Origin: Flavobacteriales bacterium
GTDB lineage: Bacteria > Bacteroidota > Bacteroidia > Flavobacteriales_D > Crocinitomicaceae
Direction: 5' to 3'
Length of the DNA stretch: 55,497 nucleotides
NCBI GenBank assembly: GCA_947470515.1
Contig: CANITF010000017.1
Location: forward strand, 1-55,497
The position numbers and the translations under genes were made by a program. This document shows, one piece after another, positions 15,582 to 55,497 of this stretch (position 1 is the first letter of the stretch; every line of letters starts with the position of its first letter). Below the pieces are notes generated by a model. That model had not been told where the DNA came from. It was given only the letters and a program-made list of their open reading frames with translations, and did no database searches.

Positions 15582-15764
15582 ATTGCTATAATCACTTCTA
15601 AATGAAAAGTAACAAAAAGAATCAAAACGGATTTATTGCTATTAATTATTTGAATTCAATTTGATGTAATCATGTGACTAGTCAAATAATATATCAAATT
15701 TTAAAATAAAGCTGCAGTCAAGCTAAAATTATAAATAGTACAATTTTCAAACACAAATAAATTA

Positions 15765-15834
15765 TACATTTTGTGTAATACATTTTGTGTAATACATTTT
15801 GTTTAATACATTTTGTGTAATACATTTTGTGTAA
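15765..15834 (+). repeat. Five tandem copies of a 14-bp iteron TACATTTTGTGTAA
   Basis: Copies start at 15765, 15779, 15793, 15807 and 15821. Only the third differs (GTTTAA for GTGTAA). Each copy holds the dyad TACA-N5-TGTA. The last copy supplies the TTTG that fits a -33 element for the gene at 15862. The rest of the 15582-15861 gap shows nothing else recognisable. Confidence 0.9.
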
Positions 15835-15857
15835 TTTAAGAAAAAATTGTATATTTG
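15826..15857 (+). promoter_or_regulatory. Promoter of the ATPase gene, TTTG-N20-TATATTTG
   Basis: The -33 TTTG (15826-15829) lies in the last iteron, followed by 20 bp and then the exact -7 box TATATTTG (15850-15857). The box ends 4 nt before ATG 15862, predicting a leaderless mRNA. One of the best promoter matches in the window. Confidence 0.7.
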
Positions 15858-15861
15858 GACT

Positions 15862-16995
15862 ATGAGAAAAGAGTTTAATCCATTCATAACTTCATTATAT
15901 GAAGGTCCGGAGCATTTTTGCGACAGGAAAAGCGAAACACAACAATTGATCGATTATGTTGAAAATGGCACAAATGTAACGTTATTTTCTATCCGAAGAC
16001 TCGGTAAAACTGGATTAATTCAACATGTTTTCAATCAATTAACAGAAGAAAAAGATACAATATGCATCTATATTGACATACTTCCAACTCAAAAATTAGA
16101 AGATTTTACTAATCAATTAGCCACAGCTATTTATAATATATTTCCGCCAAACAAAAGATTAGGAAAGAAATTACTAGCGTTTATACAACAATTCCGTCCA
16201 ACAATTAGCTTTGATGAACTTTCAAGCAATCCAACACTCAGTTTAGCTAAGGCATCCCCTATTCAGCAAAATAAAACAATTAATTACTTATTTAATTTTT
16301 TAGATTCTCAGAATTTGAAGGTTGTATTTGCAATCGATGAATTTCAACAAATTTTAGAGTATCCTGAAAAAAATACTGAAGCGCTATTAAGGACGTACAT
16401 TCAGCAATTAAAAAATACTTCTTTTATTTTCTGCGGTAGTAATCAGAAAATGATGCATGAGATTTTCAATTCGAGCAAACGACCGTTTTTTGCAAGTTGC
16501 TCTAATATGCAGCTAGATTTTATTCCAACTACTGTTTATTCAGAATTCATAAATAACAAATTCACGGAACGAAAAAAAGCTATTACTCCTGAAAGTATTG
16601 ATTTCATTTGTGAGTGGACCAAATGTCATACTTTTTACACACAGTTTTTTTGTAATGTATTATTTTCTAAAAATCTCAAACATAACGATATAAAAGATGC
16701 GCACGATGTTGCTATTCACATTTTAAAAATAAATGAATCCATTTTTTATCAATATCGAAATCTATTATCAGAAGCTCAATGGCGTTTATTAAGAGCTATT
16801 GCAAAAGTTGAAAAATTACACCAACCAAACGCAAAAGATTTTATTCAAAACCATTCACTTGGCACACCTTCATTAGTTACAAGAGGAATGGATGCACTTT
16901 TAACGAAAGAAATGATTTTTCATAATAGCTCTGTTGAAAAACCTTATTACGAAGTATATGACAAATTTTTAATGCGCTGGCTTCAACAGCACTAA
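15862..16995 (+). CDS. AAA/archaeal-ATPase-like ATP-binding protein
   Basis: Protein of 377 aa from ATG 15862. An upstream TTG at 15847 is inside the promoter and is rejected. Walker A is SIRRLGKTGLIQ (about residue 48), Walker B VVFAIDEFQQI (about 160) and sensor-like SFIFCGSNQKMMHEIF (about 195). The C-terminal third (about 290-377) looks like a winged helix, with the NHSLGTPSLVTRGMDALL helix pair. It resembles Pfam archaeal ATPase (PF01637) proteins, a P-loop family of scattered distribution and mostly unknown role. Only this gene in the window has an iteron array. Its stop overlaps the convergent TonB receptor gene by 4 bp. Confidence 0.85.
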   Translation: MRKEFNPFITSLYEGPEHFCDRKSETQQLIDYVENGTNVTLFSIRRLGKTGLIQHVFNQLTEEKDTICIYIDILPTQKLEDFTNQLATAIYNIFPPNKRLGKKLLAFIQQFRPTISFDELSSNPTLSLAKASPIQQNKTINYLFNFLDSQNLKVVFAIDEFQQILEYPEKNTEALLRTYIQQLKNTSFIFCGSNQKMMHEIFNSSKRPFFASCSNMQLDFIPTTVYSEFINNKFTERKKAITPESIDFICEWTKCHTFYTQFFCNVLFSKNLKHNDIKDAHDVAIHILKINESIFYQYRNLLSEAQWRLLRAIAKVEKLHQPNAKDFIQNHSLGTPSLVTRGMDALLTKEMIFHNSSVEKPYYEVYDKFLMRWLQQH

Positions 16996-22400: not shown

Positions 22401-22408
22401 TAACTTTG
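22401..22408 (+). promoter_or_regulatory. -7 box TAACTTTG of dnaX
   Basis: Exact TAnnTTTG, ending 6 nt before ATG 22415, so the leader is at most a few nucleotides. It overlaps the TTG at 22406, which is therefore not the start codon. Confidence 0.5.
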
Positions 22409-22414
22409 TTTCTC

Positions 22415-23530
22415 ATGAGTGATTTTGTTGTTTCAGCTAGAAAATATAGACCCCAGACCTTTGATACGGTTGTGGGACAAAAGTCGATTACTTCTACTTT
22501 AAAAAACGCAATTAAAACAGGTCATTTAGCACAATCATTTTTGTTTTGTGGTTCAAGAGGAGTTGGTAAAACAACAACGGCTAGAATTTTGGCAAAAACG
22601 ATAAACTGTTTTAATAGATCTGAATCGATTGAAGCATGTGACCAATGTGATTCTTGCCTTTCATTTAACGAAGGTGCTTCTCTGAACGTTTATGAGCTAG
22701 ATGCTGCTTCCAATAATGGAATTGAGGATATTAGAAATCTAATTGACCAAGTTCGAATAGCACCTCAATTGGGTGAATATAAAATCTATATTATTGATGA
22801 GGTTCACATGCTCTCTAATTCAGCCTTCAATGGTTTTTTGAAAACCTTAGAAGAGCCGCCAAAACACGCTATTTTTATTCTTGCAACGACTGAAAAATAT
22901 AAAATAATTCCTACGATTCTTTCCCGTTGTCAAATTTTTGATTTCAACAGAATTAAAGTAAAAGATATTGCTGATCATTTGGCTTACATTGCAACACAAG
23001 AAGCAATAACAGCCGATCCAGAATCATTGCATTTAATTGCCCAAAAAGCAGATGGTGCGTTGCGTGATGCTTTGTCGATATTTGATCAAATCGTCACATT
23101 TACTGGAAATAATTTAACGTACAAGAGTGTTATTGAAAACCTTAACATTCTTGATTATGATTATTACTTCAGAATAGTAGACAGCGCGCAAAAACAAGAT
23201 ATCCCATCATCTTTGTTGCTTTTAAATGATATTTACGAAAAAGGTTTTGACGGACACAATTTTATTGTTGGCTTAGCTGATCATTATAGAAACTTATTGG
23301 TTTGTAAAGATATTCGAACGGCAGTTTTACTTGAAGTTGGTGATGCAATTGAACAACGTTACATTGATCAATCGAAAGAAGTTGACGGTAATTTAATCTT
23401 ACGCGCATTGGCCGTGTTGAGTAAATCGGATGTCGATTATAAGTCATCAAAAAACCAACGTTTACTGGTTGAAATGGCGCTGATGCAATTGTGTTCTTTA
23501 TTACAAGAGCAAGAAAAAAAAAATGCCTGA
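22415..23530 (+). CDS. dnaX: DNA polymerase III gamma/tau subunit, reading frame of the gamma-like form
   Basis: Clamp-loader ATPase. 371 aa: start MSDFVVSARKYRPQTF, Walker A FCGSRGVGKTTTARIL (about 47), zinc site CDQCDSC preceded by CFNRSESIEAC, Walker B IYIIDEVHML (about 125), SRC motif LSRCQIF (about 172) and collar domain to about 365. The frame closes with TGA (23528-23530) right after a run of ten A (23514-23523). The missing tau C-terminus continues in the -1 frame. Either ribosomal or transcriptional slippage makes gamma and tau, or the gene or assembly has an indel here. Confidence 0.93.
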   Translation: MSDFVVSARKYRPQTFDTVVGQKSITSTLKNAIKTGHLAQSFLFCGSRGVGKTTTARILAKTINCFNRSESIEACDQCDSCLSFNEGASLNVYELDAASNNGIEDIRNLIDQVRIAPQLGEYKIYIIDEVHMLSNSAFNGFLKTLEEPPKHAIFILATTEKYKIIPTILSRCQIFDFNRIKVKDIADHLAYIATQEAITADPESLHLIAQKADGALRDALSIFDQIVTFTGNNLTYKSVIENLNILDYDYYFRIVDSAQKQDIPSSLLLLNDIYEKGFDGHNFIVGLADHYRNLLVCKDIRTAVLLEVGDAIEQRYIDQSKEVDGNLILRALAVLSKSDVDYKSSKNQRLLVEMALMQLCSLLQEQEKKNA

Positions 23531-24141
23531 CGGATCCCGTTGATTTAATTCCATTTCCAAATCAAAATTTAAGAGACAAGATTTCGTCTGTTCCAAAACC
23601 GATTGCTCCTCCAGTTCGACAAGCATCAATTCCAGTTGAACCAGAAAAAAAATTGACTACTGTTTCATCGGCTGATTTGAATACCACCTCACTTTCTATC
23701 AAAAAGATGATGGAGAAAAAGGAAGATGACAAATCTGGTTCAGAACAACTGCATGAAAACCTTCCTAGAAATCCATTTACGTTTGATCAAGTTAAAAGGC
23801 ATTGGAGATCTTTTGCTTTTGAAATGAAGGAGCAAGGTAAGGAAACATTCTACAATGCAATGATTAAGCGTGAACCAATTCAAAAGGAGGAAACGCACTT
23901 TGTTATGGATGTTGACAACCAAACACAAGTTGACATGATTACACCACACCTTTTGGATCTTGTTGGATACTTTAGAAAAGAATTAAAAAACTATTCAATC
24001 GATATTAGTTTTAAGCTAAATGATAATCCAGAACACGAAGTGAAATTTCTTACTGGAAAAGATAAATTTGCTGCAATGGCAAGGAAAAATCCGAATTTGC
24101 ATACGTTGAAGAGTACGTTTAATTTGGATATTGAGTTTTAG
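23515..24141 (+). CDS. dnaX: DnaX tau-specific C-terminal region in the -1 frame
   Basis: 209 codons continuing dnaX after a -1 shift in the A10 tract. The joined protein would read ...EQE-KKKCLTDPVDLIPFP... A Pro-rich linker (about the first 60 residues) leads to a conserved domain (PFTFDQVKRHWRSFAFEMKE, NQTQVDMITPHLLDLVGYFR, NYSIDISF) typical of the Bacteroidota DnaX C-terminus, which in tau binds helicase and polymerase core. No plausible independent start: the open frame begins with GTG 23491 inside the collar domain. A small dyad ACGG-ATC-CCGT (23530-23540) lies 6 nt after the A run. Confidence 0.88.
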   Translation, partial: KKKCLTDPVDLIPFPNQNLRDKISSVPKPIAPPVRQASIPVEPEKKLTTVSSADLNTTSLSIKKMMEKKEDDKSGSEQLHENLPRNPFTFDQVKRHWRSFAFEMKEQGKETFYNAMIKREPIQKEETHFVMDVDNQTQVDMITPHLLDLVGYFRKELKNYSIDISFKLNDNPEHEVKFLTGKDKFAAMARKNPNLHTLKSTFNLDIEF

Positions 24142-24144
24142 AGA

Positions 24145-24172
24145 AATTGCTAGTTACAAATTGCTAGTTGCA
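24145..24172 (-). repeat. Heptad repeat of the YTNGYAA family, inverted orientation
   Basis: Two 14-bp copies, AATTGCTAGTTACA (24145-24158) and AATTGCTAGTTGCA (24159-24172), starting 4 nt after the dnaX stop. On the minus strand they read as heptads CTTGCAA, CTAGCAA, TTTGTAA, CTAGCAA, matching the arrays at 27668-27730 and 55255-55289. Confidence 0.65.
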
Positions 24173-24192
24173 AGTTTTGCATAGTAATAAAT

Positions 24193-26268
24193 TTAAAACT
24201 TCACCCTCAATTGCACTGTAATATCTGATTTTTTTGAGCCTGTAATTTCTTCGGCACCTGAACCAATGGAAGAACGGTTATTGTATATAAATACGCCATA
24301 TCGTACCCACAAATCACAATGACGTAAGAAGGAATAACGGATCATTGCGTATGCCCTACTTCCTTGATAATAATAGGAAGGAACAGCAAATACGTACAAT
24401 GCATTATTTTCATAGGAATAAATTCGTGTATCGTAACTGTCTGTATCGAACAAAACATATCTCAAGGCAAGATCAAAAGGTAATTTTTTCGGTTTGAATA
24501 ATACATCTTGACTGATAATCAATCCTTTTTCAGGTGTATTACTTTTTCGGTTGATGGTAACATATTCAATTCTACTTTTGATGGTGAAAAATTCACTCAC
24601 TGCATAGGAGATGTTTAAACGGTAATTGCGCTGAATCACATCTTCAATTGGTGTAACTGTTCCATCAGAATCTCGGCTATTCTTTTGTCGTAATTGCTCA
24701 CGGAATCGGACATATATCTCCAATTGTTTATTAGGTTTATAAGATGGTTGAAACATGAATTCATGCCCTGTTGAAGGGGAATCAACTTGGTATTTCATCC
24801 AAGGAAATTTGAATAAATCAACATAACTATTTACAGTCCATGCTGGTGATAATTTCATTTTTAGTCCAGCATAAATTCCACTTTCATTCTGCGTATTACT
24901 TCCTTCAGAGAAACCTGTATTATACAATGTTTGATATCCTCGTTGATAATTTCGGTATAGAATACTGAAAGATGCTCGAGAGTCCAACGAAAACAAAACG
25001 CCATGTAAATTTGCCCATGAACCATTGTAGGAAGAGCGAGAAGTTTCACCGAAAAAATTAAAATTCTTGATTACCCAACTGTAATCGGCACTCAATGAAA
25101 ACATGTTTTTGCCTCTAAAATCAAATTGATTGTATGGCTGAATTGCTTTACTATAATCCTTATCATAACCTTGAAAAATTCCTGCAATTCCAACTTGAAA
25201 GTTTCTATTTCTAAAGCGCAAATTTGATCCCACGATTTTTTCTGTCAGCGCATTTTTCTTGGCAATTTCAGAATTCGTTCGATGCAATCCTGTTAAATTA
25301 ATACTGGTTACAAATTCCAAATCGTCAAAAAGTGAATCAGAGAGCAATGAAGCATCCACTTTTTTCACAGATGCAAAAGAAGTTAATGAGAAAGCTTTAT
25401 ATCCAATGTCAATTGCTGCTCCACGCATAAAACGTGTTTCATCAACTGATGTATATGGTTTTAATGGATTAGCAGTTTTTTTCACATTCGTTACATCAGC
25501 AGTTTTACCGAAAGCATATCCCGACCATAAATTCAACCCTTGACCAATTTGAATTTGATAATCTCCAAGAGCAACAGCTCTAATGTATTTTCCTCCTTTG
25601 AAAAAGGCATGAACCGAATAAAAATCGAATCCATTTTTTTGAGCCCCTTTGAAAAATTGTTCACCAGCGTCTTTATCACCAGTGATTCCTATACTTATAT
25701 TGGTTCGATAACTGTAGCGTAAACGGGTATAATAATGGTCAGAATTCCCGTAATAAAAGGAGTTACTTGTTTGTTGAATTGAATCTGGAACATTCGCATA
25801 ACCACTTTTTGCTTCTGGTGTCGACTGATAACGCAAGAACGCTTCATAATTCCCTTGATTTAATGCTTCTTTCCAAGAAACATGAAGGTTATCTAATTTG
25901 TCATCCACTCGAATAAAAGGCAATACTAATTGAATTGTTTGTAAATCCCAATATTCTAAACTTTGCAGCTCATAAACAGAAATTAATTTCCCAAACAATT
26001 TTACATGAAGTAATAGATCATTGATTTGGACTGACGACAATAAATTTAATTCTTCTAATTCCTCTGCTGTTGCGCCATTTAAGTTTAAAGGGTGGTCAAA
26101 GTAATAATTGAGTTGTTCAACAACGTTGGTTAAATCGATTTCTTCTGTTTCCAATTGCTCTGCTATGAATTCGATACGTTGCTGTACTACTTCACTTTTC
26201 TCCTGAGAAAACACTTGAAAACTTATAAAAAAGCAACTTAATATTAAGATATGTCGAAAATAGATCAA
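24193..26268 (-). CDS. Outer-membrane beta-barrel protein with N-terminal helix-hairpin-helix region
   Basis: Protein of 691 aa. Signal peptide MIYFRHILILSCFFISFQVFSQ, then a ComEA-like helix-hairpin-helix segment (about 55-115: LNLNGATAEELEELNLLSSV and SVYELQSLEYWDLQTIQLV). A long region with alternating beta strands (about 140-691) ends KSDITVQLRVKF, with the terminal Phe of outer-membrane barrels. Bacteroidota homologues are annotated only as helix-hairpin-helix domain proteins. It is translationally close (3 bp) behind the gene at 26272, which encodes another small barrel. A role in DNA binding or uptake at the envelope is conceivable but unproven. Confidence 0.85.
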   Translation of the reverse strand: MIYFRHILILSCFFISFQVFSQEKSEVVQQRIEFIAEQLETEEIDLTNVVEQLNYYFDHPLNLNGATAEELEELNLLSSVQINDLLLHVKLFGKLISVYELQSLEYWDLQTIQLVLPFIRVDDKLDNLHVSWKEALNQGNYEAFLRYQSTPEAKSGYANVPDSIQQTSNSFYYGNSDHYYTRLRYSYRTNISIGITGDKDAGEQFFKGAQKNGFDFYSVHAFFKGGKYIRAVALGDYQIQIGQGLNLWSGYAFGKTADVTNVKKTANPLKPYTSVDETRFMRGAAIDIGYKAFSLTSFASVKKVDASLLSDSLFDDLEFVTSINLTGLHRTNSEIAKKNALTEKIVGSNLRFRNRNFQVGIAGIFQGYDKDYSKAIQPYNQFDFRGKNMFSLSADYSWVIKNFNFFGETSRSSYNGSWANLHGVLFSLDSRASFSILYRNYQRGYQTLYNTGFSEGSNTQNESGIYAGLKMKLSPAWTVNSYVDLFKFPWMKYQVDSPSTGHEFMFQPSYKPNKQLEIYVRFREQLRQKNSRDSDGTVTPIEDVIQRNYRLNISYAVSEFFTIKSRIEYVTINRKSNTPEKGLIISQDVLFKPKKLPFDLALRYVLFDTDSYDTRIYSYENNALYVFAVPSYYYQGSRAYAMIRYSFLRHCDLWVRYGVFIYNNRSSIGSGAEEITGSKKSDITVQLRVKF

Positions 26269-27104: not shown

Positions 27105-27560
27105 TTATTTTTTCAATAATCTTTTCAAATTAGGTAAAAGTTTATTGTTGAAGTAGTTTTCTTGATCAATAAAAAACCACGATTTACCATTGTCACTTGA
27201 GATTGCGACTAATTTATGTTTCGCCTCCAATTCTTCATTCGTTGCTTTATGGTAAGCGTCTAAGTCATATTCCACGTGAATTTCATCGTTTTCTTTAATT
27301 GTTTGACGCATCGTTGGATTCTCTAAATATAAACTATCTAAATTGCAATCAAATGCCCGTTGAAAAGCACTATCTCCTTGCGATTTATATGCAATTACCA
27401 TATCTGGGTAGGAAAATGCAACATAATTGACGAGTCGGCATTCATTTCTTGAGAACAGATACGCGGACAATGATTCGTTTAATTTCTTTTCTTGATCACC
27501 AGATAAAGTACAGGAAACAAGAACTAGAAGTAAGATGAGTAAAGAATAATATTTTTTCAT
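27105..27560 (-). CDS. Lipoprotein of unknown function
   Basis: Protein of 151 aa from ATG 27560. An upstream in-frame ATG at 27614 would put 18 residues before the signal peptide and reads through the heptad repeat, so it is rejected. Signal peptide and lipobox MKKYYSLLILLLVLVSC. The mature part ends with SSDNGKSWFFIDQENYFNNKLLPNLKRLLKK. No family recognised. It lies 23 bp upstream of the PorV-like barrel gene and is likely cotranscribed with it. Its own upstream region consists largely of repeats. Confidence 0.75.
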   Translation of the reverse strand: MKKYYSLLILLLVLVSCTLSGDQEKKLNESLSAYLFSRNECRLVNYVAFSYPDMVIAYKSQGDSAFQRAFDCNLDSLYLENPTMRQTIKENDEIHVEYDLDAYHKATNEELEAKHKLVAISSDNGKSWFFIDQENYFNNKLLPNLKRLLKK

Positions 27561-27566
27561 GCTGAA

Positions 27567-27594
27567 GGATTTGGGATTCGGGATTCGTGATGTG
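27567..27594 (+). repeat. Heptad repeat GGATTTG/GGATTCG, four units
   Basis: GGATTTG, GGATTCG, GGATTCG, TGATGTG in perfect 7-bp register. First part of a composite repeat (with 27632-27657 and 27668-27730) whose order is repeated at 55178-55289. Confidence 0.7.
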
Positions 27595-27631
27595 TAATTC
27601 AATTTGAAACACATTCATCATTTAATTTAAA

Positions 27632-27657
27632 CCACATAGGCACATAGGACACATGGG
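27632..27657 (+). repeat. Nine-bp repeat CACATAGG(N), three units
   Basis: CCACATAGG, CACATAGGA, CACATGGG. It corresponds to the CACAAAGG(N) array at 55214-55240, with A to T changes. Confidence 0.65.
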
Positions 27658-27667
27658 CTTTCCCATA

Positions 27668-27730
27668 TTTGTAATTCGTAGCTCATAACTTGTAATTCAT
27701 AACTTGTAATTTGTAACTTATAACTCGCAA
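27668..27730 (+). repeat. Heptad array of the YTNRTAA family, nine units
   Basis: Nine consecutive 7-mers: TTTGTAA, TTCGTAG, CTCATAA, CTTGTAA, TTCATAA, CTTGTAA, TTTGTAA, CTTATAA, CTCGCAA. The last two supply the stop codon and last codons of the minus-strand gene that ends at 27718. Confidence 0.75.
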
Positions 27731-27954
27731 CGCCTTGTGTATTCCGTTTCACTTGATAAAACAAATGGTTCTTGTAGTTCTAACATATCTTTAATTCGAA
27801 GCATTTCTGGATATTGTTCTGCAACGATTTTGTGCTTTATAAATTTGCTTCCCATTTGCTGAATTTCTTCAAAATTGCGATCATCGAGAATCTTATAGAA
27901 AGTCTTACCGTTAGAAAGCTTTCGGTATTGAGGAAAGTCCGTATTTTTATCCAT
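27718..27954 (-). CDS. Small conserved hypothetical protein
   Basis: Protein of 78 aa, MDKNTDFPQYRKLSNGKTFYKI... It resembles small Flavobacteriales proteins opening with FPQYRKYxNxKSFFKI; no function is known to me. Cytoplasmic by sequence. Its last codons (Cys-Glu-Leu) and stop are formed by the heptad array, so the C-terminus may have been altered by repeat insertion. Divergent from nth by 77 bp. Confidence 0.65.
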   Translation of the reverse strand: MDKNTDFPQYRKLSNGKTFYKILDDRNFEEIQQMGSKFIKHKIVAEQYPEMLRIKDMLELQEPFVLSSETEYTRRCEL

Positions 27955-52682: not shown

Positions 52683-52711
52683 TTTGAAAAATCCTCGTAC
52701 CGTTATATTTG
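52683..52711 (+). promoter_or_regulatory. Promoter of the DUF5916 gene, TTTG-N17-TATATTTG
   Basis: TTTG 52683-52686, 17 bp, exact TATATTTG 52704-52711, then 6 nt to ATG 52718. The 52481-52717 gap otherwise shows only a weak inverted repeat near 52528-52540. Confidence 0.65.
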
Positions 52712-52717
52712 TTCTCA

Positions 52718-55177
52718 ATGTTTAAAAAGGCACTTTTCTTTAGTTTATTGTTATGTTTGAACTCCTCGTTTGGGCAGAAATCAATTGCTGCATTTTCTAC
52801 TGTTGAAAAAATAACCATTGACGGGCAAATTATTGAAAGTGATTGGGCAAATGCTCAAACCATTCAAGATTTCACACAATTCAAACCTCAACCTGGAGTA
52901 GCTTCAACACAGCAGACACAAGTAAAAATAATGTACGACAAAAGTGCGCTATATGTCTCGGCAATATGCCATGACAAAGCTGAACACATTTCAAACGTAC
53001 TTTGTGAAAGAGACGATTTTAATGCAAACATCGATAATTTCCAGATAATCCTTGACACCTACAATGATGATCAGAATGGGTTCTCATTTGGGGTAAGTAG
53101 TATGGGCGTTCAATTCGACTCAAAAGTATCTGCTACAGGTGAAAGTGTTGAACTAAATATGGTATGGAGCAGTGCTGTTAAAAGAACTGAAAATGGATGG
53201 GAGGTAGAAATGCGTATTCCCTACTCTGCTTTCCGATTTCCAAAAGTGGATGTTCAAAATTGGGGAGTAAATTTTTATCGGCAAATTAGTCGTAACAGAG
53301 AAGAAACCACTTGGAGTCCAATAAAACCAGATCTAGATAATTGGCTTGTACAATGCGGAGTTGCTACTGATATTAAAGACATTGAACCTCCATTAAGACT
53401 TGCTTTTATGCCCTATTTATCTGCTTATGCCGATCATTATCCATCAAATATAGCTGGTCAAAGTAATTGGTTAAGCTCGTTCAATGGTGGAATGGATATA
53501 AAATTAGGTTTGAATGAGGCTTTCACTTTAGACATGACGTTGGTTCCCGATTTCGGACAAGTTGTATTTGATAATAAAGTGTTGAATTTGAGTCCATTTG
53601 AAATACAATTTAATGAAAACAGGCAGTTCTTTACTGAAGGGACTGAGTTGTTCAATAAGTCAGGATTGTTTTATTCAAGGCGAATCGGAATTCAATCACC
53701 ATACAGTGTTTTAAGTACGAACTTAACATCAGATGAGTACTTGACAAACACACCTTCTTCTTCGAAATTATATAATGCTTCAAAACTTTCAGGAAGGACT
53801 AAAAAAGGCTTAGGTATTGGCGTATTTAATGGCATAACAGCGGAACAAGAATCAACAGCTGTAAATTCATTGACAGGAATAGAAAGGCAAATTATATCAT
53901 CACCTTTAACTAATTACAACGTAGTTGTTTTAGATCAAAATCTAAAAAATAATAGCTCGATTACTTTAACCAATACAAATGTTATGCGAGAAGGCATTTT
54001 TTACGATGCCAATGTTACTGGATTGAACACAAAATTAAATACTGTTGATAATAAATATTTTGTCGCGGGAAGAACTACTCTTTCCAATAAATTCTTTTCT
54101 TCCAACACAAGTACTGGCTATAATTATGGTCTTTCTTCAGGAAAACAAACTGGTAACTTTATCTTTCTCGGGTCCTATTTTGAAGAGTCTAACACCTATG
54201 ACCCAAATGATCTAGGATTTAACTACAACAACAATAAACGGGTAGCAGAAGCATCAGTTTCCTACCGTGTATTCAAACCTTTTTGGAAATTGAATCAATT
54301 TTCAAGCACCTTAGGTTATTCATACAACAGATTATACAAGCCAAATGTATATACTTCAACCTACGTCAATTGGAATTCGTTCATGCTACTTAAGAAATTT
54401 CATGCATCGGGAATTAGAATGAATGCAAGTGTAACAGATAGCTACGATTATTTTGAACCGAGAACTGAAAACATGTATTTTATCCGACCTAAATGGCTCA
54501 CAATGGGTGCCTGGTTTTCATCGAATTACCAAAAGAAATTTGCTTTGGATTTAGGGTTAGATTACACGTTTGTAACCAGAGAAGGTTGGAAAGATTATTC
54601 TTTTAATGTAAGTCCTCGATTTAGATTAAGTGATAAAATGTTCCTGGTATATGAATTTGAACAAGGATACTCTATTAATAGTCAAGGTTATGCTATTGCA
54701 TTTGGAGAACCTCTAATCGCTTCAAATACAATTGTTTTTGGATCACGTAACTTGATAAATACAACTAATACATTAAATTTCCGCTATACCATGACAAATC
54801 GCATGGGCATTACTTTCAGAATGCGACATTATCGTTCTGTGCTTTCGTATAACTCATTCTTTGATTTAAATTTGGATGGAACATTGACTCCCAATACTTT
54901 GGATGGGCTAGATGTTAATGGTGAATCTGTTTACAATACAAACTTCAATGCTTTTACAATTGATTTGGTATACCGTTGGGTTTTCCAACCGGGGAGTGAA
55001 ATAAATATTGTTTGGAAGAATTCGATTTTTTCGGATGATTCAAATATCAAACAAGCCTATTTCGCCAACCTATCTTCAATGTTTGAGTATGCTCCATTGA
55101 ATAGTTTGTCCATAAAGGTGCTATATTGGCTAGATTATCAAAGTTTAAAGCGCAAGAAAGAAGTCATCAAAAAATAA
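52718..55177 (+). CDS. DUF5916 protein: CBM9-like domain plus outer-membrane barrel
   Basis: Protein of 819 aa from ATG 52718; the earlier TTG lies inside the promoter. Signal peptide MFKKALFFSLLLCLNSSFGQ. Carbohydrate-binding module 9-like domain (about 25-215: ITIDGQIIESDWANAQTIQD, WEVEMRIPYSAFRFP) is followed by a DUF5916 beta-barrel (about 225-819: DFGQVVFDNKVLNLSPFEI, FNENRQFFTEG, GLFYSRRIG). Family members are frequent in Bacteroidota; ligand unknown. Heptad repeats begin right after the stop. Confidence 0.9.
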   Translation: MFKKALFFSLLLCLNSSFGQKSIAAFSTVEKITIDGQIIESDWANAQTIQDFTQFKPQPGVASTQQTQVKIMYDKSALYVSAICHDKAEHISNVLCERDDFNANIDNFQIILDTYNDDQNGFSFGVSSMGVQFDSKVSATGESVELNMVWSSAVKRTENGWEVEMRIPYSAFRFPKVDVQNWGVNFYRQISRNREETTWSPIKPDLDNWLVQCGVATDIKDIEPPLRLAFMPYLSAYADHYPSNIAGQSNWLSSFNGGMDIKLGLNEAFTLDMTLVPDFGQVVFDNKVLNLSPFEIQFNENRQFFTEGTELFNKSGLFYSRRIGIQSPYSVLSTNLTSDEYLTNTPSSSKLYNASKLSGRTKKGLGIGVFNGITAEQESTAVNSLTGIERQIISSPLTNYNVVVLDQNLKNNSSITLTNTNVMREGIFYDANVTGLNTKLNTVDNKYFVAGRTTLSNKFFSSNTSTGYNYGLSSGKQTGNFIFLGSYFEESNTYDPNDLGFNYNNNKRVAEASVSYRVFKPFWKLNQFSSTLGYSYNRLYKPNVYTSTYVNWNSFMLLKKFHASGIRMNASVTDSYDYFEPRTENMYFIRPKWLTMGAWFSSNYQKKFALDLGLDYTFVTREGWKDYSFNVSPRFRLSDKMFLVYEFEQGYSINSQGYAIAFGEPLIASNTIVFGSRNLINTTNTLNFRYTMTNRMGITFRMRHYRSVLSYNSFFDLNLDGTLTPNTLDGLDVNGESVYNTNFNAFTIDLVYRWVFQPGSEINIVWKNSIFSDDSNIKQAYFANLSSMFEYAPLNSLSIKVLYWLDYQSLKRKKEVIKK

Positions 55178-55198
55178 GGATTCAGGATTTGTGATTTG
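55178..55198 (+). repeat. Heptad repeat GGATTCA/GGATTTG/TGATTTG
   Basis: Three units starting on the base after the DUF5916 stop codon. Corresponds to 27567-27594 as first part of the composite element. Confidence 0.65.
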
Positions 55199-55213
55199 TA
55201 AGTCATTTTTTTA

Positions 55214-55240
55214 CCACAAAGGCACAAAGGGCACAAAGAC
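55214..55240 (+). repeat. Nine-bp repeat CACAAAGG(N), three units
   Basis: CCACAAAGG, CACAAAGGG, CACAAAGAC. Second part of the composite element, counterpart of 27632-27657. Confidence 0.65.
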
Positions 55241-55254
55241 GCTTCAGTTTGGGG

Positions 55255-55289
55255 TGTGCAACTAGTAATTTGTAATTTGTAGTTTGTAA
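55255..55289 (+). repeat. Heptad array YTNGTAA family, five units
   Basis: TGTGCAA, CTAGTAA, TTTGTAA, TTTGTAG, TTTGTAA, ending 1 nt before the stop codon of the minus-strand flavoprotein gene. Third part of the composite element, counterpart of 27668-27730. Confidence 0.7.
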
Positions 55290-55290
55290 T

Positions 55291-55497
55291 TTACCCTACA
55301 CTTTTTCCTGCCACAAAACCCGTTGTCCATGCAGCTTGGAAGTTGAAACCTCCGGTGATTCCATCAATATCCAGTACTTCTCCCGCGAAGAACATTCCTG
55401 GAACAATTTTACTTTCCATCGTTTTGAAGTTGACATCTTGCAAGGAGATTCCTCCTGCCGTGACAAATTCTTCTTTGAAGGTAGTTTTTCCACTTAC
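55291..55497 (-). CDS. BaiN/YhiN-type NAD(P)/FAD-dependent oxidoreductase, C-terminal end (cut by window edge)
   Basis: The 68 visible residues contain [40 protein letters not shown] and [15 protein letters not shown], the C-terminal FAD-binding signature of HI0933/YhiN (BaiN-like) flavoproteins. The N-terminal FAD motif lies beyond the window. Substrate in this family is generally unassigned. The stop codon abuts the heptad array at 55255-55289. Confidence 0.9.

Follow-up and report, generated by a model that had tools for sequence, protein, structure and literature searches.

The window, by which we mean the whole stretch of 55,497 nucleotides that was analyzed, is contig C17 of a Flavobacteriales genome of 2.99 Mb that is spread over 58 contigs. 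On direct sequence reading, two sites in this window (27567-27730 and 55178-55292) exhibit the same arrangement, wherein an array of heptads is followed by a block of CACAWAG units and then by more heptads, all on the plus strand. An earlier note on this DNA had proposed that the two sites share a three-part order and orientation, and this proposal is confirmed both by the reading and by shuffled sequences, which yield almost no such motifs. The features are as follows.

27567..27600, plus strand: left heptads of site 1, GGATTTG GGATTCG GGATTCG TGATGTG TAATTC
27633..27656, plus strand: 24-bp triplet of site 1, CACATAG-G-CACATAG-GA-CACATGG, spacing 8/9, third unit degenerate
27667..27730, plus strand: right heptads of site 1, ATTTGTA ATTCGTA ... 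AACTTGTA AACTTATA AACTCGC
55178..55200, plus strand: left heptads of site 2, GGATTCA GGATTTG TGATTTG TA
55215..55238, plus strand: 24-bp triplet of site 2, CACAAAG-G-CACAAAG-GG-CACAAAG, spacing 8/9
55259..55292, plus strand: right heptads of site 2, CAACTAGTAATTTGTAATTTGTAGTTTGTAATTT
24145..24175, minus strand: heptads only, no triplet, AACTAGC/AATTTGT type, between the dnaX 3' ORF and a minus-strand gene (24193-26268)

The ends of these elements frequently abut the ends of coding regions. At site 1, the left heptads are overlapped by the longest ORF called mechanically (27105-27614), and a minus-strand ATG at 27558-27560, 6 bp from the heptads, is the probable start of the lipoprotein-like neighbor gene. 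The right heptads overlap the 3' end of a 78-amino-acid minus-strand ORF (27718-27954), of which relatives carry homologues. The left heptads of site 2 open at the base directly 3' of the stop codon of a DUF5916 gene (52709-55177), and the last right heptad enters the stop codon of a convergent gene of the aminoacetone oxidase family (minus strand, coding part from 55294). The same site-2 element, together with the same flanking gene end, is present at the end of contig C8, with one composite in the window (55215-55497) versus three at the C8 locus (L083). For this reason C17 and C8 are likely to be neighbors, with a copy number of the element that probably differs between assemblies or strains.

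The heptads behind dnaX had been reported as a reverse-oriented array, and they are real, albeit weak. Separately, dnaX itself extends over two frames (22406-23530 and 23491-24141) with the break at a run of ten A residues (23514-23523). The first ORF ends just past this run and the tau tail lies in the second, and the run looks like a slippage site that yields gamma and tau from one gene. The top-scoring tandem array of the window is another one altogether, consisting of five copies of ATACATTTTGTGTA at 15764-15835, just before an ORF at 15847-16995.

The component motifs are far more frequent than chance predicts. CACAWAG pairs and GGATTYRGGATTYG each occur three times in the window (mean 0.00 in 100 dinucleotide shuffles), and YTNGTAAYTNGTAA occurs twice (mean 0.06). 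Genome-wide, there are 25+19 CACAWAG pairs, 14+23 copies of TTNGTAAYTYGTAAYT, and 3+2 GGATTYG unit pairs at a distance of 14 bp, versus 0+0, 0+1 and 0+0 matches, respectively, for the reversed patterns. Three phased heptads match at 25+40 places versus 0+0 for the control, and these 7-bp tandem arrays are dispersed and intergenic. We took 42 stretches of this genome around CACAWAG-pair and heptad matches and read them. They contain 26 block loci, which represent 25 sites because one site was assembled twice, as L083 and as L091. These numbers apply to stretches picked by the two kinds of pattern, and only some of the blocks interrupted by a hairpin cassette are counted.

The three parts had been described as distinct, and the layout in three parts holds. 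However, the outer GGATTYG and YTNGTAA units prove to be a single in-phase heptad family with drifted forms, which also takes in AACTTGTA, AACTATA, CACTCAT and others. No one heptad is constant: six classes were counted next to the blocks, and they are mixed within the loci that we read. A test that makes no use of heptad motifs, applied to the sequence up to 120 bp from the blocks, gives one clear peak, which lies at lag 7. Lag-7 identity in this genome is 0.392 upstream and 0.424 downstream (shuffles 0.296 and 0.292, standard deviation about 0.007), and in the close relative G005 it is 0.340 and 0.394 (shuffles 0.298 and 0.295). Heptads of the strict classes are absent at 14 of the 26 loci, and yet the flanks, taken together, have a period of 7.

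The middle part had been read as an array of CACAWAGG nonamers. The CACAWAG block is real, but in most cases it takes the form of a fixed 24-bp triplet, CACAWAG-R-CACAWAG-NN-CACAWAG, rather than an array of free length. By regular expression, 31 of the 47 arrays in this genome have three units at 8/9 spacing, another 3 also comprise three units but are spaced otherwise, 13 consist of two units, and none has four or more. The corresponding numbers for the 57 arrays of G005 are 42 with three units at 8/9, 14 with two units, and a single array with four. The 8/9 triplets have G or A as their first spacer and an almost unconstrained second spacer, and the triplet is preceded by an AT-rich lead, within or beside the heptads. 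Several blocks also contain a 24-bp hairpin cassette that belongs to a family with the core TTCGAYAARCTCA (38+50 matches genome-wide in G000 versus 0+0 for the control). In the 30 places that were read by eye (L390-L419), only two core variants are found, and the 3-5 bases next to the core covary (CACT/AGTG, CCCT/AGGG, GGCT/AGCC).

Orientation within the composite is strongly biased. Among the 26 loci, the heptads share the strand of the block at 11 and oppose it at 1, the remaining 14 having no heptads of the strict classes or equal numbers on both strands (p=0.006). Counted as units on the same versus the opposite strand, the classes give 30:7 (R2), 75:6 (R3), 22:1 (R4), 47:0 (R5) and 38:5 (R6), and R1 exhibits the weakest bias (15:9); in these counts, flanks between neighboring arrays were entered from both sides. 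The order of the parts is a tendency and not a rule. TA-type heptads are in excess downstream of the block at 10 loci and upstream at 2 (p=0.04), and GG/TG-type heptads are in excess upstream at 6 loci and downstream at 1, which is not significant (p=0.125). The full GG-type, block, TA-type order, which had been put forward as fixed, is found at only 5 of the 26 loci (4 sites, with L083/L091 as one) and the reversed order at 1.

None of the 26 block loci has its block cluster within an ORF, as judged by a mechanical ORF caller. The gene to the right of the block turns its 3' end toward the element at 21 loci and its start at 4 (p=0.0009), whereas the left-hand gene exhibits no orientation bias (13:12). 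The total over all clusters is 31:11, and tandem gene pairs taken alone give 11:3 at block loci (p=0.057) and 16:8 (p=0.15), neither of which is significant. This count covers clusters outside ORFs and heptad-only clusters of at least 21 bp, with the sub-clusters of L095 and of L098 merged and L083/L091 entered as one convergent site. At L090 the left gene picked by the caller is a more remote one of the same strand, and the class of this locus is unaffected.

Two close relatives, G005 and G007, allow the sites to be followed between genomes (at the protein level, 99% identity for endonuclease III, and 97% and 94% for the gene beside site 2). Site 1 is common to both, with altered numbers of heptads and, in G005, a different insert. 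In G009, G002 and G022, the same two neighbor genes (protein matches of 45-62%) nearly abut without the element, and in G040, G006 and G017 the small ORF of site 1 lies opposite another gene, likewise without the element. The convergent gene pair of site 2 nearly abuts in G006, G017 and G040. The site-2 element was not seen in G005 or G007, where the DUF5916 gene is not adjacent and the site itself is thus not preserved. Downstream of the aminoacetone-oxidase-family gene, at the place that the site-2 element occupies in our genome, G005 carries a different repeat with CCCGCAAATAACGCAGAAAAA units (L196). The element-free orthologous sites are too diverged for a check of target-site duplications.

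Differences at other orthologous sites affect every level of the composite. Heptads number five at one site and nine at its ortholog (L073/L164), the gain or loss of a single CACAAAG unit distinguishes another pair (L078/L116), and in G011 the same two convergent genes lack approximately 250 bp between them (L100/L144). By-eye alignments add further cases. G005 has a 42-bp stretch with a triplet inside the heptads where our genome has 3 bp (L354/L077), the 24-bp hairpin cassette inside the triplet is present versus absent at two sites (L066/L365 and L102/L360), and single composites stand opposite double or multiple ones (for example, two versus one at L089/L359). Each of these cassette differences may be a gain or a loss. 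Of the 27 block clusters in G005, 16 are orthologous to one of the 42 stretches of our genome; the other 11 have no ortholog among these 42, except that one of them (L366) has a partial flank match.

Different loci within our genome likewise have segments in common. L106 and L107 are 96.7% identical over 92 bp, and L067 and L095 are 93.5% identical over 92 bp. The likeness of the first pair predates the split from G005, given that the orthologous loci L361 and L355 have the same block in common. These are two of 481 inter-locus matches, which include many simple repeats and whose top match, L083/L091, is a single site seen twice. With copies reaching about 97% identity over about 90 bp, and with presence or absence between species, the proposal of the earlier note that these arrays form a dispersed family of fixed orientation and drifting sequence is borne out.

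Beyond the close relatives, the parts separate. Among 40 genomes (our own, its genus and its order), three phased heptads are found in 19, the triplet pattern in 7 and both in 5, which leaves 14 genomes that have phased heptads without the triplet and 2 that have the triplet without heptads; the reversed control heptad matches in two of the 40 (3 matches in G028 and 1 in G038). Because the parts also occur apart, heptads and triplet are separate modules, whose combination in this genome follows a strand rule that is strong and an order rule that is weaker, and the notion of a single obligate three-part element is not upheld. The independent occurrence of the motifs elsewhere, which the earlier note would have taken as a refutation, is thus partly observed: they do occur separately in other genomes, but in this genome the strand rule and the order tendency hold. 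In a wider set of 395 genomes of the phylum, heptads are found in 44, a number that is only weakly specific because the reversed control heptad matches many genomes as well (for example, 21+9 in G119).

A search of named genomes for ATTCGT followed by CACAWAG pairs returned 76 stretches (L225-L300) in many phyla. The pattern demanded a nearby ATTCGT, and so the set is not a census, and about five chance matches are expected by arithmetic. At least two phased heptads lie upstream of the block in only 4 of the 76, all from records CAMDNE and CANNKP, which match G005 and G007; the printed parts of L276 and L280 are identical to L166 and L167. The record of L276 (CAMDNE010000001.1) is titled Chitinophaga pinensis, and its printed sequence is that of G005, so this title may be wrong. 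An inverted arm is present within 200 bp in 29 of the 76 stretches, versus 45 of 2000 random windows. Twenty-four of these 29 hairpins fold at z < -3, as measured against mononucleotide shuffles in a set preselected for the inverted arm, and their arms match at 38 of 71 units (0.54 versus 0.39 when shuffled, with 1 of 1000 shuffles as high). Direct-repeat blocks of the general form CACNNAG, often as hairpins, are found in Bacteroidota, Chloroflexi, Desulfobacterota, Cyanobacteria, Planctomycetota and others.

Similar blocks occur on predicted viral contigs of IMG/VR, where 8-spaced pairs were found in 13 stretches for CACATAG and 46 for CACAAAG (L420-L478), although with a 16-base pattern such matches are partly due to chance. 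An inverted arm lies within 200 bp at 4 of 15 CACATAG places and 14 of 47 CACAAAG places, in DNA that is either viral or flanking host, and a third unit is present at 5 of 15 and 17 of 47, respectively. Contigs L421, L429, L440 and L441 are among those with CACNNAG blocks, and several hairpins are clear. None of the 62 places has phased heptads beside the pair. The rarer 9-spaced CACATAG pair was found at 13 viral places, none with a third unit or an inverted arm; viral carriage is nonetheless possible, because the 8-spaced scan gave hairpins on predicted viral contigs. Phages gave two weak partial matches to site 1 of the window (E values of 1e-3 and 4e-3), and plasmids gave no match to one Bacteroidota hairpin.

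Several known repeats resemble parts of this element. The STRR heptamer repeats of heterocystous cyanobacteria are dispersed 7-bp tandem arrays between genes, as here, with other sequences and in another lineage, and we know of no CACAWAG triplet in them. We likewise know of no name for the CACNNAG blocks. The blocks of other phyla and of viral contigs have the same CACAAAG and CACATAG units, mostly at 8-10 bp spacing, but often as two opposed arms and mostly without heptads, whereas here a single arm lies beside heptads. REP, BIME and REPIN elements, as characterized in published passages, are likewise intergenic mosaics of short modules in high copy. According to the same passages, however, REPs are palindromes, often tied to RAYTs and alternating in orientation within BIMEs, whereas the element described here consists of direct repeats in one orientation.

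Passages of one study describe arrays of the heptad TAACTGA in Beggiatoaceae, cyanobacteria and five Bacteroidetes, and state that in certain relatives the intergenic regions are shorter and lack the repeats (MacGregor, 2015; PMC4679880). As portrayed there, these repeats are like our element in being intergenic arrays of direct heptads in scattered phyla, with other heptads in the same gaps (PMC4679880). They differ in that one heptad is fixed, related heptamers are rarely repeated in the genome concerned, and the arrays are mostly just upstream of start codons; an order of triplet and cassette does not appear in those passages (PMC4679880). Intergenic heptads and interspersed mosaics such as BIMEs are therefore known, whereas searches of one open-access full-text library gave no account of either the triplet or the composite, and the motif letters returned only unrelated work there. 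With its separable modules, its presence or absence at orthologous sites and its inter-locus copies, the element has the properties of a mosaic interspersed repeat; it differs in make-up between close relatives and resembles known bacterial interspersed repeats.

We find it somewhat more probable than its opposite that the composite is a non-coding mosaic intergenic repeat, which enlarges through slippage and tandem duplication, is disseminated by a homology-driven exchange of cassettes, and needs no host function. Copy number, orientation bias, 7-periodic flanks, orthologous presence and absence, tandem amplification, inter-locus sharing and element-free sites are all direct observations. Heptad numbers would change through replication slippage, whole composites would be amplified through unequal recombination, and cassettes would be copied between loci by gene conversion or template switching, with the heptads serving as homology arms. 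If copying uses the homology of flanking heptads, the triplet would keep its strand, and roughly its order, without a transposase, and selection against insertions in genes would account for the intergenic position. The simplest competing idea, that simple repeats arise independently by slippage in any intergenic space and share their order by coincidence, fits the drift in heptad numbers and the occurrence of each motif alone in other genomes. This idea is very improbable, and is largely refuted by the 11:1 strand rule and by inter-locus copies at 93-97%; furthermore, the triplet is not an array of variable number, and it is present or absent as a discrete cassette.

The discreteness of this cassette at the same orthologous site would also suit a non-autonomous transposable unit of the MITE or REP/REPIN type, mobilized by a transposase in trans and perhaps carried by phages, with the heptads being incidental or the target. 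The inverted arms, which occur across many phyla as well as on predicted viral contigs, speak for such a unit, as does the presence of two Y1-transposase genes in this genome (L314 on C8 and L315 on C33). However, in our genome the units are not palindromic, with an inverted arm within 200 bp downstream in only 1 of 46 arrays. Terminal inverted repeats are at chance level, given that inverted matches of at least 7 bp are found in 11 of 97 arrays (8.7 with shuffled partners, largest 17). By eye, the palindromes on either side of the two Y1_Tnp genes (RAYT or IS200-like) are different ones, such as GTCCCTACGGGAC and GACTTCTCTGAAGTC, and neither gene is flanked by a CACAWAG block. The lack of a plasmid match to the one hairpin also counts against mobility of this kind, which we regard as unlikely. 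We are slightly more doubtful still of a functional cis element, such as an mRNA element near the 3' end or the start, bound by protein as three direct repeats. The fixed geometry of the triplet, the lack of block clusters in ORFs and the one-sided bias of the right-hand genes are consistent with it, and translational regulation has been proposed, in the passages cited above, for the TAACTGA heptads upstream of starts (MacGregor, 2015; PMC4679880). Against it stand the fast gain and loss between close relatives, the bias that falls short of significance in tandem gene pairs, and the fold at the window sites, which is no better than that of shuffles (z of 0.97, -0.32, 1.11 and -0.09). A structured RNA, for which the earlier note had suggested a check, was rejected as a candidate on this z near 0 at the two sites, and Rfam at its gathering score reports only one tRNA in the window.

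The reading as a mosaic repeat spread by cassette exchange leaves some observations unaccounted for. Neutral slippage does not explain why the units number a constant three, or why they recur, frequently in hairpin form, on predicted viral contigs and in other phyla; both points suggest constraint or mobility. The 21:4 gene-orientation bias is not predicted by the mosaic-repeat reading unless start regions are avoided, and together with the constant triplet it may leave room for a function. As a more tentative extension, which we consider improbable at present, the CACNNAG block could be one unnamed dispersed element that extends over many phyla, resides partly on viral genomes and often forms a hairpin. 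Here a single arm of it would have been captured by heptad arrays, which would act as homology landing pads and permit a transposase-free spread in one orientation.

The close trio G000, G005 and G007 offers orthologous sites at which unit slippage, cassette gain or loss and composite duplication can each be read. The CACNNAG motif ties the flavobacterial element to intergenic repeats in several phyla. If its fixed orientation and rough order do arise without a transposase, then the homology supplied by their own tandem flanks would allow short bacterial repeats to multiply.
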